A stretch of DNA of 42,667 bases from Nitrospira sp. (lineage in GTDB: Bacteria; Nitrospirota; Nitrospiria; Nitrospirales; Nitrospiraceae), in contig JAHFEW010000030.1 of assembly GCA_023248215.1 (NCBI GenBank), positions 2,517 to 45,183 of the forward strand, in the 5' to 3' direction. Shown here one piece after another: positions 35,777 through 40,361 of this stretch (position 1 is its first letter; each line of letters begins with the position of its first letter). Under the pieces are notes generated by a model, which saw nothing but the letters and a program-made list of their open reading frames with translations, ran no database searches and was not told the DNA's origin. Both the position numbers and the translations under genes were made by a program.

Positions 35777-36397
35777 ATGAGCGAAGTTGTCAAACTGCAG
35801 CTAATCGGTCTCTGCGTCGTCGGCTTCGGTACAATCATTCTCCTGTTCATCAAGGCCCAATTTGCCCGGGTTATCGGCTTTGTGTCGATCGTGCTCGGGT
35901 TGTTTGCCCTGGTGGCACTCGCCGTCCCGCAGATGGCCTCTCTGCCCCCGGCAGAGGAAAGTATCAACATCGCCGATATCAAAACCCCGACGGACATGGC
36001 CTCGATCGGCCAGAAGATATTTTTCAGCAAGGGCCAGTGCGCGCTCTGTCACTCGATCGGTCCGAGCGAATCGGCGCGTTGTCCTGATTTGAAAGGCATC
36101 GGGTCTAAACTGTCTCGTGACTTCATGTTCGAGAGCTTGACGGAACCGCAAGCCTATATCTATTTGGACTACCGCCATGAAGGCATCCCGAAGGAATATC
36201 CGGCCCGGATGCCGCATATCAACAAGAACCCCATCGGCTTGTCCAAGAATGAAATTCTGTCGGTCATCGCGTTCTTGCAACAGATGAGCGGTGAGCCGAT
36301 CAGCGTGAACCCGTCTGAATTGGATCTGCCGCGTGCGACACCGGCGCCTGTCAAGGCGGCTGATGCCGGTTCGCTCGCTATGGCTCAGGTTCGATAG
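35777..36397 (+). CDS. Membrane-anchored monohaem cytochrome c
   Basis: A 206-residue protein. Two hydrophobic helices (about residues 4-25 and 32-52) anchor a periplasmic domain with C88-ALC-H92. RMPHINKNPIGLSKNEI near residue 145 offers the axial Met and ends with the usual C-terminal helix. The start ATG follows GAGGG. The spacer 35711-35776 contains a short GC-rich inverted repeat. Probably a fixed subunit linking the Rieske centre to other haems or to NXR-side electron carriers. Confidence 0.85.
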   Translation: MSEVVKLQLIGLCVVGFGTIILLFIKAQFARVIGFVSIVLGLFALVALAVPQMASLPPAEESINIADIKTPTDMASIGQKIFFSKGQCALCHSIGPSESARCPDLKGIGSKLSRDFMFESLTEPQAYIYLDYRHEGIPKEYPARMPHINKNPIGLSKNEILSVIAFLQQMSGEPISVNPSELDLPRATPAPVKAADAGSLAMAQVR

Positions 36398-36423
36398 TCG
36401 TCGGCGAAGTAGAGGAGGAAGAT

Positions 36424-37149
36424 ATGGGAGGCGTACTCGTTAGGCCGATTATTCTCACGGTCCTCATTTATCTCTTTTTGAAGTTTATCGTCCCAACTCT
36501 ACCGCATTCCGCGCCGTTGCCCTCGAGCTTGATCTTCCTGTACTTGATGCTGACAACTGCGGGCATCGTGATTTTTGCGACCTTGAGCGGTGCGTCGAAG
36601 GATGCATTCTTCGGCCCGATCTTCCGTTTTCTGACCGGCGAAAGCGGAGGGGCTCTCAGCAGCGCACGATATCTCGTGTTGGCACTGTTCCCGTTGCTCG
36701 TCGGGTGGCAGACTTATGGGAGCACAGCTTTCAGTGACGCGCCTCCGGCAGAGAACCGCACCATTCACCCCGCTCCTCCTGGTGAGTACACTGGGCTGTC
36801 GAATCCCGTTCCGAAAACGCCGGATAACATTATGTACGGCAAGGGCCTGTATGCCTCGCGCTGTTCACCTTGCCACGGTAATTTCGACGGCAAGGGGTTT
36901 GCCGCGCCTGGTTTTACGCCTCCGCCGGCGAACTTTAAAGATCCCACGACGATCGCCATGCTTCAGGAAAGTTTCCTGTTCTGGCGGATCAAGAAGGGCG
37001 GCGTAGGCCTTCCCGTCGAAGGCATGCCCTGGAAATCGGCCATGCCGCGTTGGGAGCTTGAGTTGTCTGACGAAGATATTTGGAAAGTCATTATGGGTGA
37101 GTACGATGGAGCCGGACAAAAACCACGAACGTGGGATGAGTCCGAATAA
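36424..37149 (+). CDS. Membrane-anchored monohaem cytochrome c
   Basis: A 241-residue protein with three hydrophobic helices in the first ~100 residues and a C-terminal cytochrome domain with C147-SPC-H151. SFLFWRIKKGGVGLPVEGMPWKSAMPRW gives the axial Met region in shortened form GMPWKSAMP; this resembles the 27529 cytochrome. A very good GAGGAGGA site precedes the ATG. The fold type (NIMYGKGLYASRCSPCHG...GKG) is that of class I cytochromes found in complex IV/III assemblies. Confidence 0.85.
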   Translation: MGGVLVRPIILTVLIYLFLKFIVPTLPHSAPLPSSLIFLYLMLTTAGIVIFATLSGASKDAFFGPIFRFLTGESGGALSSARYLVLALFPLLVGWQTYGSTAFSDAPPAENRTIHPAPPGEYTGLSNPVPKTPDNIMYGKGLYASRCSPCHGNFDGKGFAAPGFTPPPANFKDPTTIAMLQESFLFWRIKKGGVGLPVEGMPWKSAMPRWELELSDEDIWKVIMGEYDGAGQKPRTWDESE

Positions 37150-37189
37150 TTCCTCCGATCAGGGATTGCTGAGCAACTAAGGGGAGCGT

Positions 37190-38017
37190 ATGGCACGAGT
37201 GAGGAGACCAGGAGCGAGATGGTGGGTTGGGGCTGTCGGCCTCGTAGGGCTGTGTCTGGCCACCGGATTACAGCCGGCCTTTAGCCAACAGAGCGTGTCC
37301 GTGCGTGCCACGCTTGTGAAGGGAGCTCTTCCGGCCGATGATCCAACGGCAGCCGTGTGGGCGACTGCTGCGGTCTCTGAATTTCCCATGTCTCCTCAGG
37401 TGCATTGGCCGGTCCGCATTACCGAAGTCACTGCGAAGAGCGTCAAAGTCCGCGGATTGCACGATGGGACCACAGTCGCGATCCTAGTGGAGTACAGCGA
37501 CCCCTCTGAAGACCCTGACGACGCAGCGGCACTTGAATTCATGGTCGGTGACACCAAGGCGCATTTTGCCCATGGCCAACCGATGGCTCAGGTCGAGGGC
37601 GGTCCCGTCAATATCTGGTATTGGAAGAATAAGGACGGCAAAGGCGTCGACATGGGAGCGAAGGGTTTCGGCACCCTCAAACCCCATGCGCACCAAGATG
37701 TGAAAGCCAAGGGTGTGTATCAGGGAGGTGCTTGGAAAGTCGTGTTCTCCCGTCCCTTTCACACTGAACATGTAGACGAAGATACTCAATTCAAGCCAGG
37801 GGAGTTTGCCAGTATCGCCTTTGCAATTTGGGACGGCAAAAAGACGGACACCGGCCAACCGAAGGAAAAGGGCTCCGAAAAAGCGATTTCGTCCTGGTGG
37901 TACTTCCGGGCTGATGCGCCGCCGGACTATTCGCCGTACATGTACGCATTACTCGCGGTGGCCTTAGCGCTGGGCTTTGAGTTGGTCCTCGTGAGACGTT
38001 TAAAGAAAGGGTCGTGA
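37190..38017 (+). CDS. Ethylbenzene-dehydrogenase-family haem-binding protein (NXR gamma-like), membrane-anchored
   Basis: A 275-residue protein with a signal peptide (WWVGAVGLVGLCLATGLQPAFS-Q) and a C-terminal helix (YMYALLAVALALGFELVLV) followed by basic residues. The periplasmic domain has the beta-rich pattern of the gamma subunits of ethylbenzene dehydrogenase, DMSO-type enzymes and nitrite oxidoreductase: AVWATAAVSEFPMSPQ at the start, VAILVEYSDPSEDPDD, and QVEGGPVNIWYWKNKDGKG, the block where the b-haem Met/Lys ligands lie in relatives. Such domains bind one haem b. Here, tied to the membrane and inside a complex III-like operon, it may dock NXR-related electron flow. Exact ligands are not certain. 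Confidence 0.78.
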   Translation: MARVRRPGARWWVGAVGLVGLCLATGLQPAFSQQSVSVRATLVKGALPADDPTAAVWATAAVSEFPMSPQVHWPVRITEVTAKSVKVRGLHDGTTVAILVEYSDPSEDPDDAAALEFMVGDTKAHFAHGQPMAQVEGGPVNIWYWKNKDGKGVDMGAKGFGTLKPHAHQDVKAKGVYQGGAWKVVFSRPFHTEHVDEDTQFKPGEFASIAFAIWDGKKTDTGQPKEKGSEKAISSWWYFRADAPPDYSPYMYALLAVALALGFELVLVRRLKKGS

Positions 38018-39033
38018 GCATGAGGGCGTGGCGAAGAATACGCGTGATCGGAGCGGTAGCAGGGGTGGTCGGACTCTCGGGCCTCGTCGGAGCCGGGGGT
38101 TGTTCGATGTTTCAAAACGAACAGGCCGCGAAGGGCAAAAAGCTCTATGCCCACTATTGCATGCATTGCCACGGGGAAAACGGAAAACAGAATGAGGGCT
38201 TTAATTGGTCCTCCATGACGGATCCCAAGCCCAAGGACCTCTCCAATAAAGAAGAGATGGGCACATTTAAAGACGAAGAAATCTTCAACACCATCTCGCG
38301 CGATATGAAAGATACGGGGCCAGGCGGGGACAAGATCGGTGACGACGAATTTGCGGTCCCGACCATGCCGACGTTCAAGCACACGCTTTCGGAAGAAGAA
38401 ATCTGGGGCATCGTCGGATATGTGCGGTCGCTGCACGGCAAGAAGCTGGAATTCAACGTCGAGGGCCGAAAGAAAGAACTCCAGGCGGCGGTCCAAGCGG
38501 CAGAGCAGAAATTTAAGGACGCCGAACGTGTGGCGCAGGAAGCCGAAAAGAAAGCCAGCGATGAGGCGGACAAGAAGGGCGTCGAAGTAGACGATAACGC
38601 CTACCTCAAAGAGATGCAGCTCATGGGCCAGGCGAAAAAGGAACTCGATCAGGCGACCCTGGCCTTGACGAACTTCACGACCAGGCCCGGGAAAGGCATC
38701 AATATCACCCGCCCTGATTTAGCTATGAAGCCGGAAGCCGCGACAAAACTCGCCGAGGTCGGCAAGCAACTGTATATGACTAAATATGGCTGCAACGGTT
38801 GCCACAAGATTGGCGATGAGGGCGGGAAGGTCGGCCCTGCGCTCGATCGTGCGGGATTCCGCCTCAACCCCACCTGGGTCTATCGTTGGCTGCGAAACCC
38901 GCAGGCCATGAAGTCCGATACTCGCATGCCAAGCTTGGGGCTCAATGATGCTGACGCGAAAGCCGTGGCCCTCTATCTGAAAACGCTTCGCGCCCCGAAG
39001 CCAGACAAGCCTCTCGGAAAGGTGGGCGACTAA
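38014..39033 (+). CDS. Dihaem cytochrome c, likely lipoprotein, with central coiled coil
   Basis: A 339-residue protein with two haem c sites, C49-MHC-H53 and C260-NGC-H264. The N-terminal segment VVGLSGLVGAGGC may be a lipobox (Cys30), though the -3 residue is not Leu. Between the two haem domains lies a long charged helix (about residues 150-225) that should form a coiled coil. The second domain has RMPSLGLNDADAKAVALYL, with the axial Met. GTG 38014 overlaps the previous stop by four bases; ATG 38020 is the other choice. Last gene of the cluster; the structured repeat begins five bases after its stop. Confidence 0.87.
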   Translation: MSMRAWRRIRVIGAVAGVVGLSGLVGAGGCSMFQNEQAAKGKKLYAHYCMHCHGENGKQNEGFNWSSMTDPKPKDLSNKEEMGTFKDEEIFNTISRDMKDTGPGGDKIGDDEFAVPTMPTFKHTLSEEEIWGIVGYVRSLHGKKLEFNVEGRKKELQAAVQAAEQKFKDAERVAQEAEKKASDEADKKGVEVDDNAYLKEMQLMGQAKKELDQATLALTNFTTRPGKGINITRPDLAMKPEAATKLAEVGKQLYMTKYGCNGCHKIGDEGGKVGPALDRAGFRLNPTWVYRWLRNPQAMKSDTRMPSLGLNDADAKAVALYLKTLRAPKPDKPLGKVGD

Positions 39034-39080
39034 TCGGCTAGCAGGATGCTGAAAAAGTCCGCCGGCTTTGTGGGGACAAT

Positions 39081-39142
39081 GGGCGCTCACCGACTCGCGC
39101 CCGTGCGCAAACGTGACGCTCCTTATTCGTCGCGTCGCGCAC
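39081..39142. ncRNA. Hairpin module, copy 1 (strand unknown; structured RNA or DNA element)
   Basis: Hairpin A: GGGCGC (39081-39086), ten-base loop, GCGCCC (39097-39102). Hairpin B: outer stem GTGCGC (39103-39108) with GCGCAC (39137-39142), six-base bulge, inner stem GACGC (39115-39119) with GCGTC (39132-39136), twelve-base loop. Copy 2 has the same lengths with paired base changes. Confidence 0.55.
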
Positions 39143-39173
39143 CTCAGAGGCTCCACGTACCGCCATGGGAAAA

Positions 39174-39193
39174 GAGCCTGTCTCGGCAGGCTC
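39174..39193. repeat. Inverted repeat between the two hairpin modules
   Basis: GAGCCTG (39174-39180) and CAGGCTC (39187-39193) form a perfect 7-bp stem with a six-base loop. No T-run follows, so it is not a classical terminator. Confidence 0.5.
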
Positions 39194-39236
39194 GGGGTGG
39201 GCGGGTAAGAATGTGACGCGTCGCCTCTAAGACACT

Positions 39237-39298
39237 GCCGGCTCACCGCCTCGCCGGCGTCCACAGACGTGGCGCTCATTATTCTTCGCGCCGTGGAC
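39237..39298. ncRNA. Hairpin module, copy 2 (strand unknown; structured RNA or DNA element)
   Basis: Hairpin A: GCCGGC (39237-39242), ten-base loop, GCCGGC (39253-39258). Hairpin B: outer stem GTCCAC (39259-39264) with GTGGAC (39293-39298), six-base bulge AGACGT, inner stem GGCGC (39271-39275) with GCGCC (39288-39292), twelve-base loop. The loops are nearly the same as in copy 1 while the stems differ in a compensated way. Confidence 0.55.
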
Positions 39299-39413
39299 CT
39301 CGCTGCGGCCTTGCTGGACGGAATTTTTGAGCATCCTGCGGGGATGTTGTTCTATTGTGCTACGTGTGTGGGCTATTGAATTTCTAGTGCCAACAGAGTT
39401 TTTCCGCATCCTG

Positions 39414-40361
39414 CTAGTGCGTACTGTTGAACGTGCCGAGCCAGATGCCGAACAAGACCACGGCTCCGGCATAGACGTGTTGCTGAAACATGCTGAAGGC
39501 CGCATGCGGGGTCACCGGGGCTTTCAATCGTTGTACCTGCCACAGGAAGAGGCCTGCGAGCAAGGCCAAGACCAGGTAATATCCCATCCGCAGGCCTGAC
39601 AACTGTCCGGCCGATATCAGGCAGACCACCATCCCCGAGAGGAAGATGCCGACGGCTTCAGGTACGGCCTCGCCGAAGAAGAGTGCGGACGATTTCACTC
39701 CGATGCGGCGGTCATCCTCCCGGTCCTGCAGCGCATAGATCGTATCGTAGGCCATGGCCCAGCAGATCGTGGCGCCAAAGAGCAGCCATGCCGGCGGGTC
39801 GACGGTGCCGCGCGAGGCACCCCAGGCCATGATAGCTCCCCATCCGAACGCGATCCCAAGAACCGCCTGTGGGATCTGGACCCATCGCTTGCTGAATGGA
39901 TAGATGGCCGCCAGGAACAGAGCGATGGGACTCAGTAGCATCGTGAAGGGATTGAGTGTCAACACCAGGAGGGCCGCGATCATCACGAGGATAAGCGCGA
40001 CGAGCAGCGCTTGCCGTGGCACCAGGCGGCCCGCGGCGAGCGGTCGGCTGCTGGTTCGCGCGACATGTTTATCAAAATTGCGGTCGGCCAAATCGTTGAA
40101 GACCACGCCAAGACTGCGCATGACGAATGCGCCGAGGACAAATACTCCCATCAGCGAAATCGGCGGACGACCGTGATTCGCCAAGACCAAGGACCAGAGG
40201 CTGGGCAACATCAGCAGCCATGTGCCGGATTGGTTGCGGAGGCGGATGAGGTCAGCGACGGCGGTCCAGGACCAGGGCGGCGCTGATCGATCGACTGGAT
40301 CGTTCGCGAGAATCACGGCCTGGACCATAGCGGAGCACAGCGGGCCTGTCAACGCGGCCAA
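39414..40361 (-). CDS. UbiA-family polyprenyltransferase (UbiA or MqnP type)
   Basis: A 315-residue integral membrane prenyltransferase with about eight or nine helices. The first Asp-rich motif is N89-DLADRNF-D97 and the second is around D206-D217 (DTIYALQDREDD); both bind Mg-pyrophosphate of the polyprenyl donor. LIRLRNQSGTWLL at the N-terminus is typical of 4-hydroxybenzoate polyprenyltransferases and of the closely related MqnP of the futalosine menaquinone route. Which one applies depends on the organism's quinone; menaquinone is expected in Nitrospira. The start may be TTG 40361 or ATG 40328. Its TAG stop (39414-39416) lies inside the end of the structured repeat. Confidence 0.88.
   Translation of the reverse strand: MAALTGPLCSAMVQAVILANDPVDRSAPPWSWTAVADLIRLRNQSGTWLLMLPSLWSLVLANHGRPPISLMGVFVLGAFVMRSLGVVFNDLADRNFDKHVARTSSRPLAAGRLVPRQALLVALILVMIAALLVLTLNPFTMLLSPIALFLAAIYPFSKRWVQIPQAVLGIAFGWGAIMAWGASRGTVDPPAWLLFGATICWAMAYDTIYALQDREDDRRIGVKSSALFFGEAVPEAVGIFLSGMVVCLISAGQLSGLRMGYYLVLALLAGLFLWQVQRLKAPVTPHAAFSMFQQHVYAGAVVLFGIWLGTFNSTH
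40324..40352 (-). promoter_or_regulatory. Possible promoter within the 5' end of the UbiA-family gene
   Basis: On the minus strand TTGACA (40352-40347) and TATGGT (40329-40324) are 17 bases apart. If used, translation would have to start downstream of ATG 40328, which is hard to reconcile with the protein, so this may be chance. Confidence 0.25.

Follow-up and report, generated by a model that had tools for sequence, protein, structure and literature searches.

A hairpin cassette of about 70 nucleotides, called M1 here, is a real and widespread structure, and two copies of it lie in the window, a stretch of 42,667 nucleotides from a Nitrospira sp. contig (JAHFEW010000030.1, positions 2,517 to 45,183 of the forward strand). 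On balance we hold that M1 is probably an interchangeable structural cassette of the palindromic repeats of Nitrospira, a genus central to nitrification, which is borne here by an IS5-type MITE, is kept as folded DNA and is selected by a protein.

Modules and carrier element in the window

The stem coordinates and sequences of two hairpin modules, as given in a first-pass annotation of this DNA, agree base for base with our direct reading. In copy 1, hairpin A is formed by GGGCGC (39081-39086) and GCGCCC (39097-39102), the outer stem of hairpin B by GTGCGC (39103-39108) and GCGCAC (39137-39142), and its inner stem by GACGC (39115-39119) and GCGTC (39132-39136), with the bulge AAACGT at 39109-39114; the stems of copy 2 (39237-39298) are GCCGGC/GCCGGC, GTCCAC/GTGGAC and GGCGC/GCGCC. 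Both are copies of M1, which consists of hairpin A and then the bulged hairpin B. The loop of hairpin B had been called conserved, and its TTATTC is indeed kept, but the variable bases counted in that loop form an additional 18th pair (model columns 47 and 54), which is C/G in copy 1 and A/T in copy 2. The annotation described the modules correctly and missed the IS5-type MITE around them; they are internal parts of a longer element, which occupies 39038-39417 together with its target duplications and has the following features.

39038-39041, no strand: left target duplication CTAG (same four bases at 39414-39417)
39042-39413, + strand: carrier element, MITE-like, 372 bp, with both modules inside (dispersed repeat; empty sites; IS5-family ends)
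39042-39063, + strand: left terminal inverted repeat CAGGATGCTGAAAAAGTCCGCC (pattern matches)
39076-39145, + strand: left M1 module (covariance model R1, 94.9 bits; pair counts)
39081-39102 and 39103-39142, + strand: hairpins A and B of the left module, with the bulge at 39109-39114 and CTC following
39122-39129, + strand: closing pair of the left module, enclosing TTATTC
39146-39228, + strand: central palindromic arm (AGAGGCTCCACGTACC .. GTGACGCGTCGCCTCT), found without modules in three other carriers (L115, L116, L119) and paired in the predicted fold
39174-39211, + strand: second hairpin insert (GAGCCTGTCTCGGCAGGCTC and GGGGTGGGCGGGTAAGAA) at the tip of the central arm, carried by some copies and lacking in others
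39232-39301, + strand: right M1 module (covariance model R1, 99.7 bits)
39237-39258 and 39259-39298, + strand: hairpins A and B of the right module, with CTC following
39316-39340, - strand: internal sequence that pairs with the left end (..TTTTTGAGCATCCTGCG) as the basal stem in the predicted fold
39397-39413, - strand: right terminal inverted repeat (CAGGATGCGGAAAAACT on the - strand), matching the end CAGGCTGCGGAAAAACTC of an IS5-type insertion sequence
39414-39417, no strand: right target duplication CTAG, which on the - strand supplies the TAG that ends the ubiA open reading frame (39414-40361)

The true ends of the carrier are CTAGCAGGATG..GAAAAA at 39038 and ..TTTTTCCGCATCCTGCTAG ending at 39417, while the left-end copy found at 39324-39340 lies inside the element and is not a carrier end. 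A search of the genome with GGATGNTGAAAAAGNCC, allowing at most two mismatches, gave 275 matches against 9 for the reversed pattern used as control, and the target duplications of carrier copies are pairs of CTAG, CTAA or TTAG, that is YTAR. The terminal inverted repeats match the ends CAGGCTGCGGAAAAAC of an insertion sequence known from a congener; this insertion sequence is 1317 bp long, has the same ends as the carrier together with a CTAG duplication, and encodes a transposase of the IS5 family (NF033581, E 3.5e-84; Pfam DUF772 and DDE_Tnp_1). In at least 18 relatives the same two genes are separated by a short spacer in which the element is absent, and CTAG occurs just once at the insertion point in one ortholog (L247). 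Taken together, the ends, the duplications and the empty orthologous sites establish that the window copy is a lineage-specific MITE insertion of IS5 type. No transposase gene is contained within its 372 bp, and the only long open frame which crosses it (38719-39279, - strand) is mostly antisense to a cytochrome gene. Like other MITEs driven by IS5 elements, the carrier has terminal repeats of about 18 bp and CTAG/YTAR duplications that match those of the congener's insertion sequence; unlike them, it is elaborate inside, with many arms and with hairpin cassettes that can be exchanged.

The element sits at the stop codon of ubiA (- strand), the coding frame of which appears unharmed because the target duplication retains the TAG. 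The second exchangeable insert consists of a GC hairpin and then GGG(G/T)TGGGCGGGTAAGAA, and it was also seen at another position in three other loci. On the other side of the element lies a run of cytochrome c genes (35777-39033), which includes a gene resembling the gamma subunit of type II ethylbenzene dehydrogenase/DMSO reductase enzymes (37190-38017) and possibly related to nitrite oxidoreductase.

Distribution of M1

The collection of genomic copies by a covariance model, which the first-pass annotation had proposed, was carried out with the model R1 (18 pairs, built from 30 distinct M1 copies), and the copy numbers in the source genome are derived from these searches. M1 was found at 80 places of the source genome at E <= 0.1, with 77 of the matches at E <= 4e-8, and R1 matched in 37 of the 61 genomes searched: in all 28 congeners and in the majority of the family's other genera, while M1 is nearly absent outside the family. 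When a strict M1 pattern was run against a named collection of 84,980 species, only records of Nitrospira or "Nitrospirae bacterium" matched. Each genome offers some 80 natural variants of a shape that is possibly recognised by a Nitrospira protein.

The stretch of the window itself is a dispersed repeat with 56 matching pieces at no fewer than 40 places of the source genome; most of these copies have the right-hand module alone, a few have both, and one has the left module alone. Plasmids, phages and viral contigs gave no match to M1, and no leading- or lagging-strand bias was visible by eye in the listed positions of two complete genomes with a putative origin. In the literature library searched, no relevant description of small repeats of Nitrospira was found, and in RepRanger Nitrospira moscoviensis appears solely as a table row.

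Covariation of the paired positions

The paired changes between the two modules had been taken as a sign of selection on structure, and the wider collection of copies supports this: covariation lies far above that of the two controls against which it was judged, namely shuffled alignments and alignments in which the pairing was slid. Among 66 distinct copies taken from relatives only, 99.2% of the pair cells are paired and double changes occur at 10 of the 18 pairs. These copies contain 119 double-change cells, against 33.1 +/- 7.9 in shuffles (0/500) and 2-4 in slid controls, figures which carry kinship, since the M1 copies share descent and their pair cells are therefore not independent events. 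The 30 copies of the source genome gave 96.3% paired cells and 66 double-change cells against 18.7 when shuffled, and sliding the M1 alignment lowers pairing to 24-50%. Loss of pairing in other copies had been named as the outcome that would speak for chance or recent duplication; many other copies keep their pairing, so this objection does not hold.

Across 138 distinct copies the flanks ACAC and CTC are almost invariant, and the hairpin A loop TCACCGNCTC and the 6-nt bulge are largely conserved. The 18th pair, which closes the TTATTC loop, behaves otherwise; its two columns are the most variable of all M1 columns (1.7 bits each), yet it is Watson-Crick in 132 of the 138 copies and is found in all four states (AT 74, TA 22, CG 20, GC 16, non-Watson-Crick 6), several of which occur on one stem background. 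The unpaired TC/TC mismatch which adjoins it is retained in 120 of the 138. Species differ in their closing pair at two orthologous loci, where G-C stands against A-T (L057 and L059 against L062; L084 against L055), and these differences can be read directly through the common flanks of the loci.

Exchange of M1 among carriers

The number of M1 modules per carrier is 0, 1 or 2. Three loci (L088, L106, L109) have M1 in place of the central arm. Unfilled carrier sites read ..TCG followed by CTC.., and the corresponding filled sites read ..AAG, then the cassette ACAC..GAC, then CTC... M1 is also present in at least two further types of palindromic carrier whose ends are unrelated: type II carriers have arms beginning with GCGCAACGCGCGGCC.. 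or GCAGAACGCGCACGAT.. inside basal stems, and type III carriers have CCGCATGATGCATGAAC.. ends (four loci). At one orthologous locus of three species the left half is of type II throughout, while the right half, which is of type II in L086 and L212, resembles the MITE in L216. The junction between the halves lies at M1, so that this module can act as a point at which carriers are swapped. As a separate observation, the basal stems of type II elements, four loci being examples, vary in sequence from locus to locus, and about 20 of their bases pair in the predicted folds.

In its organisation, though not by descent, M1 appears closest to the modular repeats of BOX type. The BOX elements of S. pneumoniae and S. 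suis are likewise interspersed repeats of modular build, which combine a basal fold with a hairpin module in their interior (PMC3049150), and this module may be absent, single or repeated, as the number of M1 per carrier also varies. In S. suis the same boxB module is found between two different kinds of ends (PMC3049150). M1 differs in that it comes from another phylum, has another sequence, is a GC-rich cassette of two hairpins and occurs in three or more types of carrier; moreover an RNA fold has been proposed for BOX, whereas the wobble count of M1, given below, points to DNA.

How M1 may be maintained

In the window, the two M1 copies would be the side arms of a MITE that is non-autonomous and that an IS5-family transposase, acting in trans, presumably placed in the ubiA stop codon. 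M1 would be maintained as folded DNA, either single-stranded during replication or extruded as a cruciform, in a shape made up of hairpin A with its TCACCGNCTC loop and hairpin B with the 6-nt bulge, the TC/TC mismatch and the closed TTATTC loop; pairing would be held strictly Watson-Crick, although several pairs are free to change their identity. A protein that reads the folded DNA by its shape and its loop bases may select for M1, perhaps a Y1/HUH nuclease that works in trans, or else a host protein that binds hairpins, and M1 may move between carriers by recombination or copying at the common ..CTC docking point.

Recognition by a transposase-like protein had already been suggested in the first-pass annotation, and it fares unevenly: the number of M1 copies tracks the number of Y1 genes, but no Y1 gene examined adjoins a module. 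Over 23 genomes, the number of M1 copies and that of Y1 (HUH) genes gave a Spearman rho of 0.78, a relation noticed post hoc among three transposase families and based on counts that depend on draft assemblies. Independent contrasts gave r 0.73 (p 4e-4, on a one-locus tree), and the partial correlation given the rve transposases is 0.71 (p 2e-4). In 8 of the 23 genomes M1 is present without a Y1 match. Neither the number of IS5-type transposases nor genome size was significant as a driver of M1 number. We regard the correlation as a lead which points toward Y1.

One form of the DNA view is that M1 is a REP-like unit, itself mobile, that a Nitrospira transposase of the RAYT/Y1 (HUH) kind cuts and copies. 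REP/BIME elements and M1 have in common that they are high-copy imperfect palindromes with bulges and paired hairpins, for which a function at the DNA level has been proposed (PMC2817692, PMC3733652), and the GC-rich, bulged palindromes of M1, their DNA-like constraint, the fixed, unpaired ACAC and CTC that flank them on either side and the agreement of copy number with Y1 gene number would fit such a unit. Two traits however define REP sequences, namely a GT(A/G)G head and a position beside a RAYT gene (PMC2817692). M1 has neither a GTAG nor a GTGG head, no such head being found beside it where the fixed flanks are ACAC and CTC, and no M1 was found in 92.6 kb around 30 Y1 genes, a result on which we reject the idea that M1 is the REP belonging to a Y1 transposase close by. 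Where the flanks of RAYT-like genes were read, they held GGGTCAGGTCTTGCAATCAC-type repeats instead. We consider this explanation unlikely, although it stands somewhat above the others weighed below. The RAYT-like Y1 genes (about 290 aa, six loci), which score just below the NCBIfam cut-off for RAYT, have the GGGTCAGGTCTTGCAATCAC-type repeats near their ends, an arrangement like that of the long-TIR "TIRtrons" of Di Nocera et al. (PMC3733652).

The ends of IS200/IS605 elements and the attC sites of integrons are folded single-stranded DNA that is read by its shape; some of its bases are bulged or unpaired, and the sequence of its stems is fairly free. M1 resembles them in its bulge and in the freedom of its stem sequence, and differs in lying neither at the ends of a Y1 element nor in a cassette array. 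It is conceivable, with a chance no better than that of the REP-like unit, that M1 is a self-standing single-stranded DNA cassette which a Nitrospira Y1/HUH enzyme reads in trans and which, having no gene or ends of its own, spreads through entry into other mobile elements at the ..CTC docking point. Since the Y1 hypothesis is a special case of the DNA view, the confidences placed in these explanations overlap.

DNA or RNA

Another explanation, doubtful and slightly less probable than the REP-like unit, is that M1 acts as RNA, as a 3'-end, terminator or mRNA-stability element read from the flanking genes, a role of the kind proposed for many REP and BOX elements. In keeping with it, M1 is intergenic, in this case between convergent genes, its loop bases are conserved and its predicted RNA fold is very stable (z -4.8). 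The wobble pairs tell against it. In 138 distinct M1 copies there are 22 G:T and 33 A:C cells, so G:T is not favoured and G:U would be tolerated no more than A:C, unlike the RNase P RNA of 20 congeners, for which the same count gave 86 G:U against 7 A:C. The contrast has p 5e-12, in a comparison where the structure of the RNase P yardstick was predicted with G:U allowed, which favours G:U, where the M1 copies share descent, and where an RNA role on both strands would look identical to DNA constraint. Nor do the flanking genes, taken from crude open-frame calls, reveal an orientation bias of M1 (37 to 27 relative to the left gene; tandem pairs 10 same-strand and 8 opposite), and Rfam searched at gathering and relaxed thresholds gave nothing relevant for M1.

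As there is neither a preference for G:T nor an orientation bias, folded DNA is favoured over strand-specific RNA, and M1 appears constrained as DNA. Of the two possibilities raised in the first-pass annotation, the extruded DNA hairpin is thus preferred on the wobble and orientation results, and the RNA is disfavoured by these and by the lack of an Rfam match. M1 is a case in which covariation, usually read as proof of RNA structure, appears to stem from folded DNA. The count of G:T against A:C, with an RNA of the same genomes as yardstick, is a simple test which could be used elsewhere.

Template switching

Paired changes with conserved loops had been called a classic sign of structural selection, and the covariation is strong; alone, however, they are not decisive, because template switching between the arms of a hairpin also produces compensatory changes without selection on the fold (PMC8794818). 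That the paired changes are altogether such a mutational by-product of replication is the least probable of these explanations: it is a known route to strictly Watson-Crick arms with few intermediates (PMC8794818), and few are likewise seen in M1, but a tract copied up to the closing pair should erase the TC/TC mismatch, which stays, together with the 6-nt bulge, while the closing pair takes all four states, and the conserved loop and flank bases would in addition require selection or a very recent spread. Selection on a specific shape of M1 is the better reading than template switching alone, because TC/TC is kept beside a freely covarying closing pair; template switching may contribute to the outer stems.
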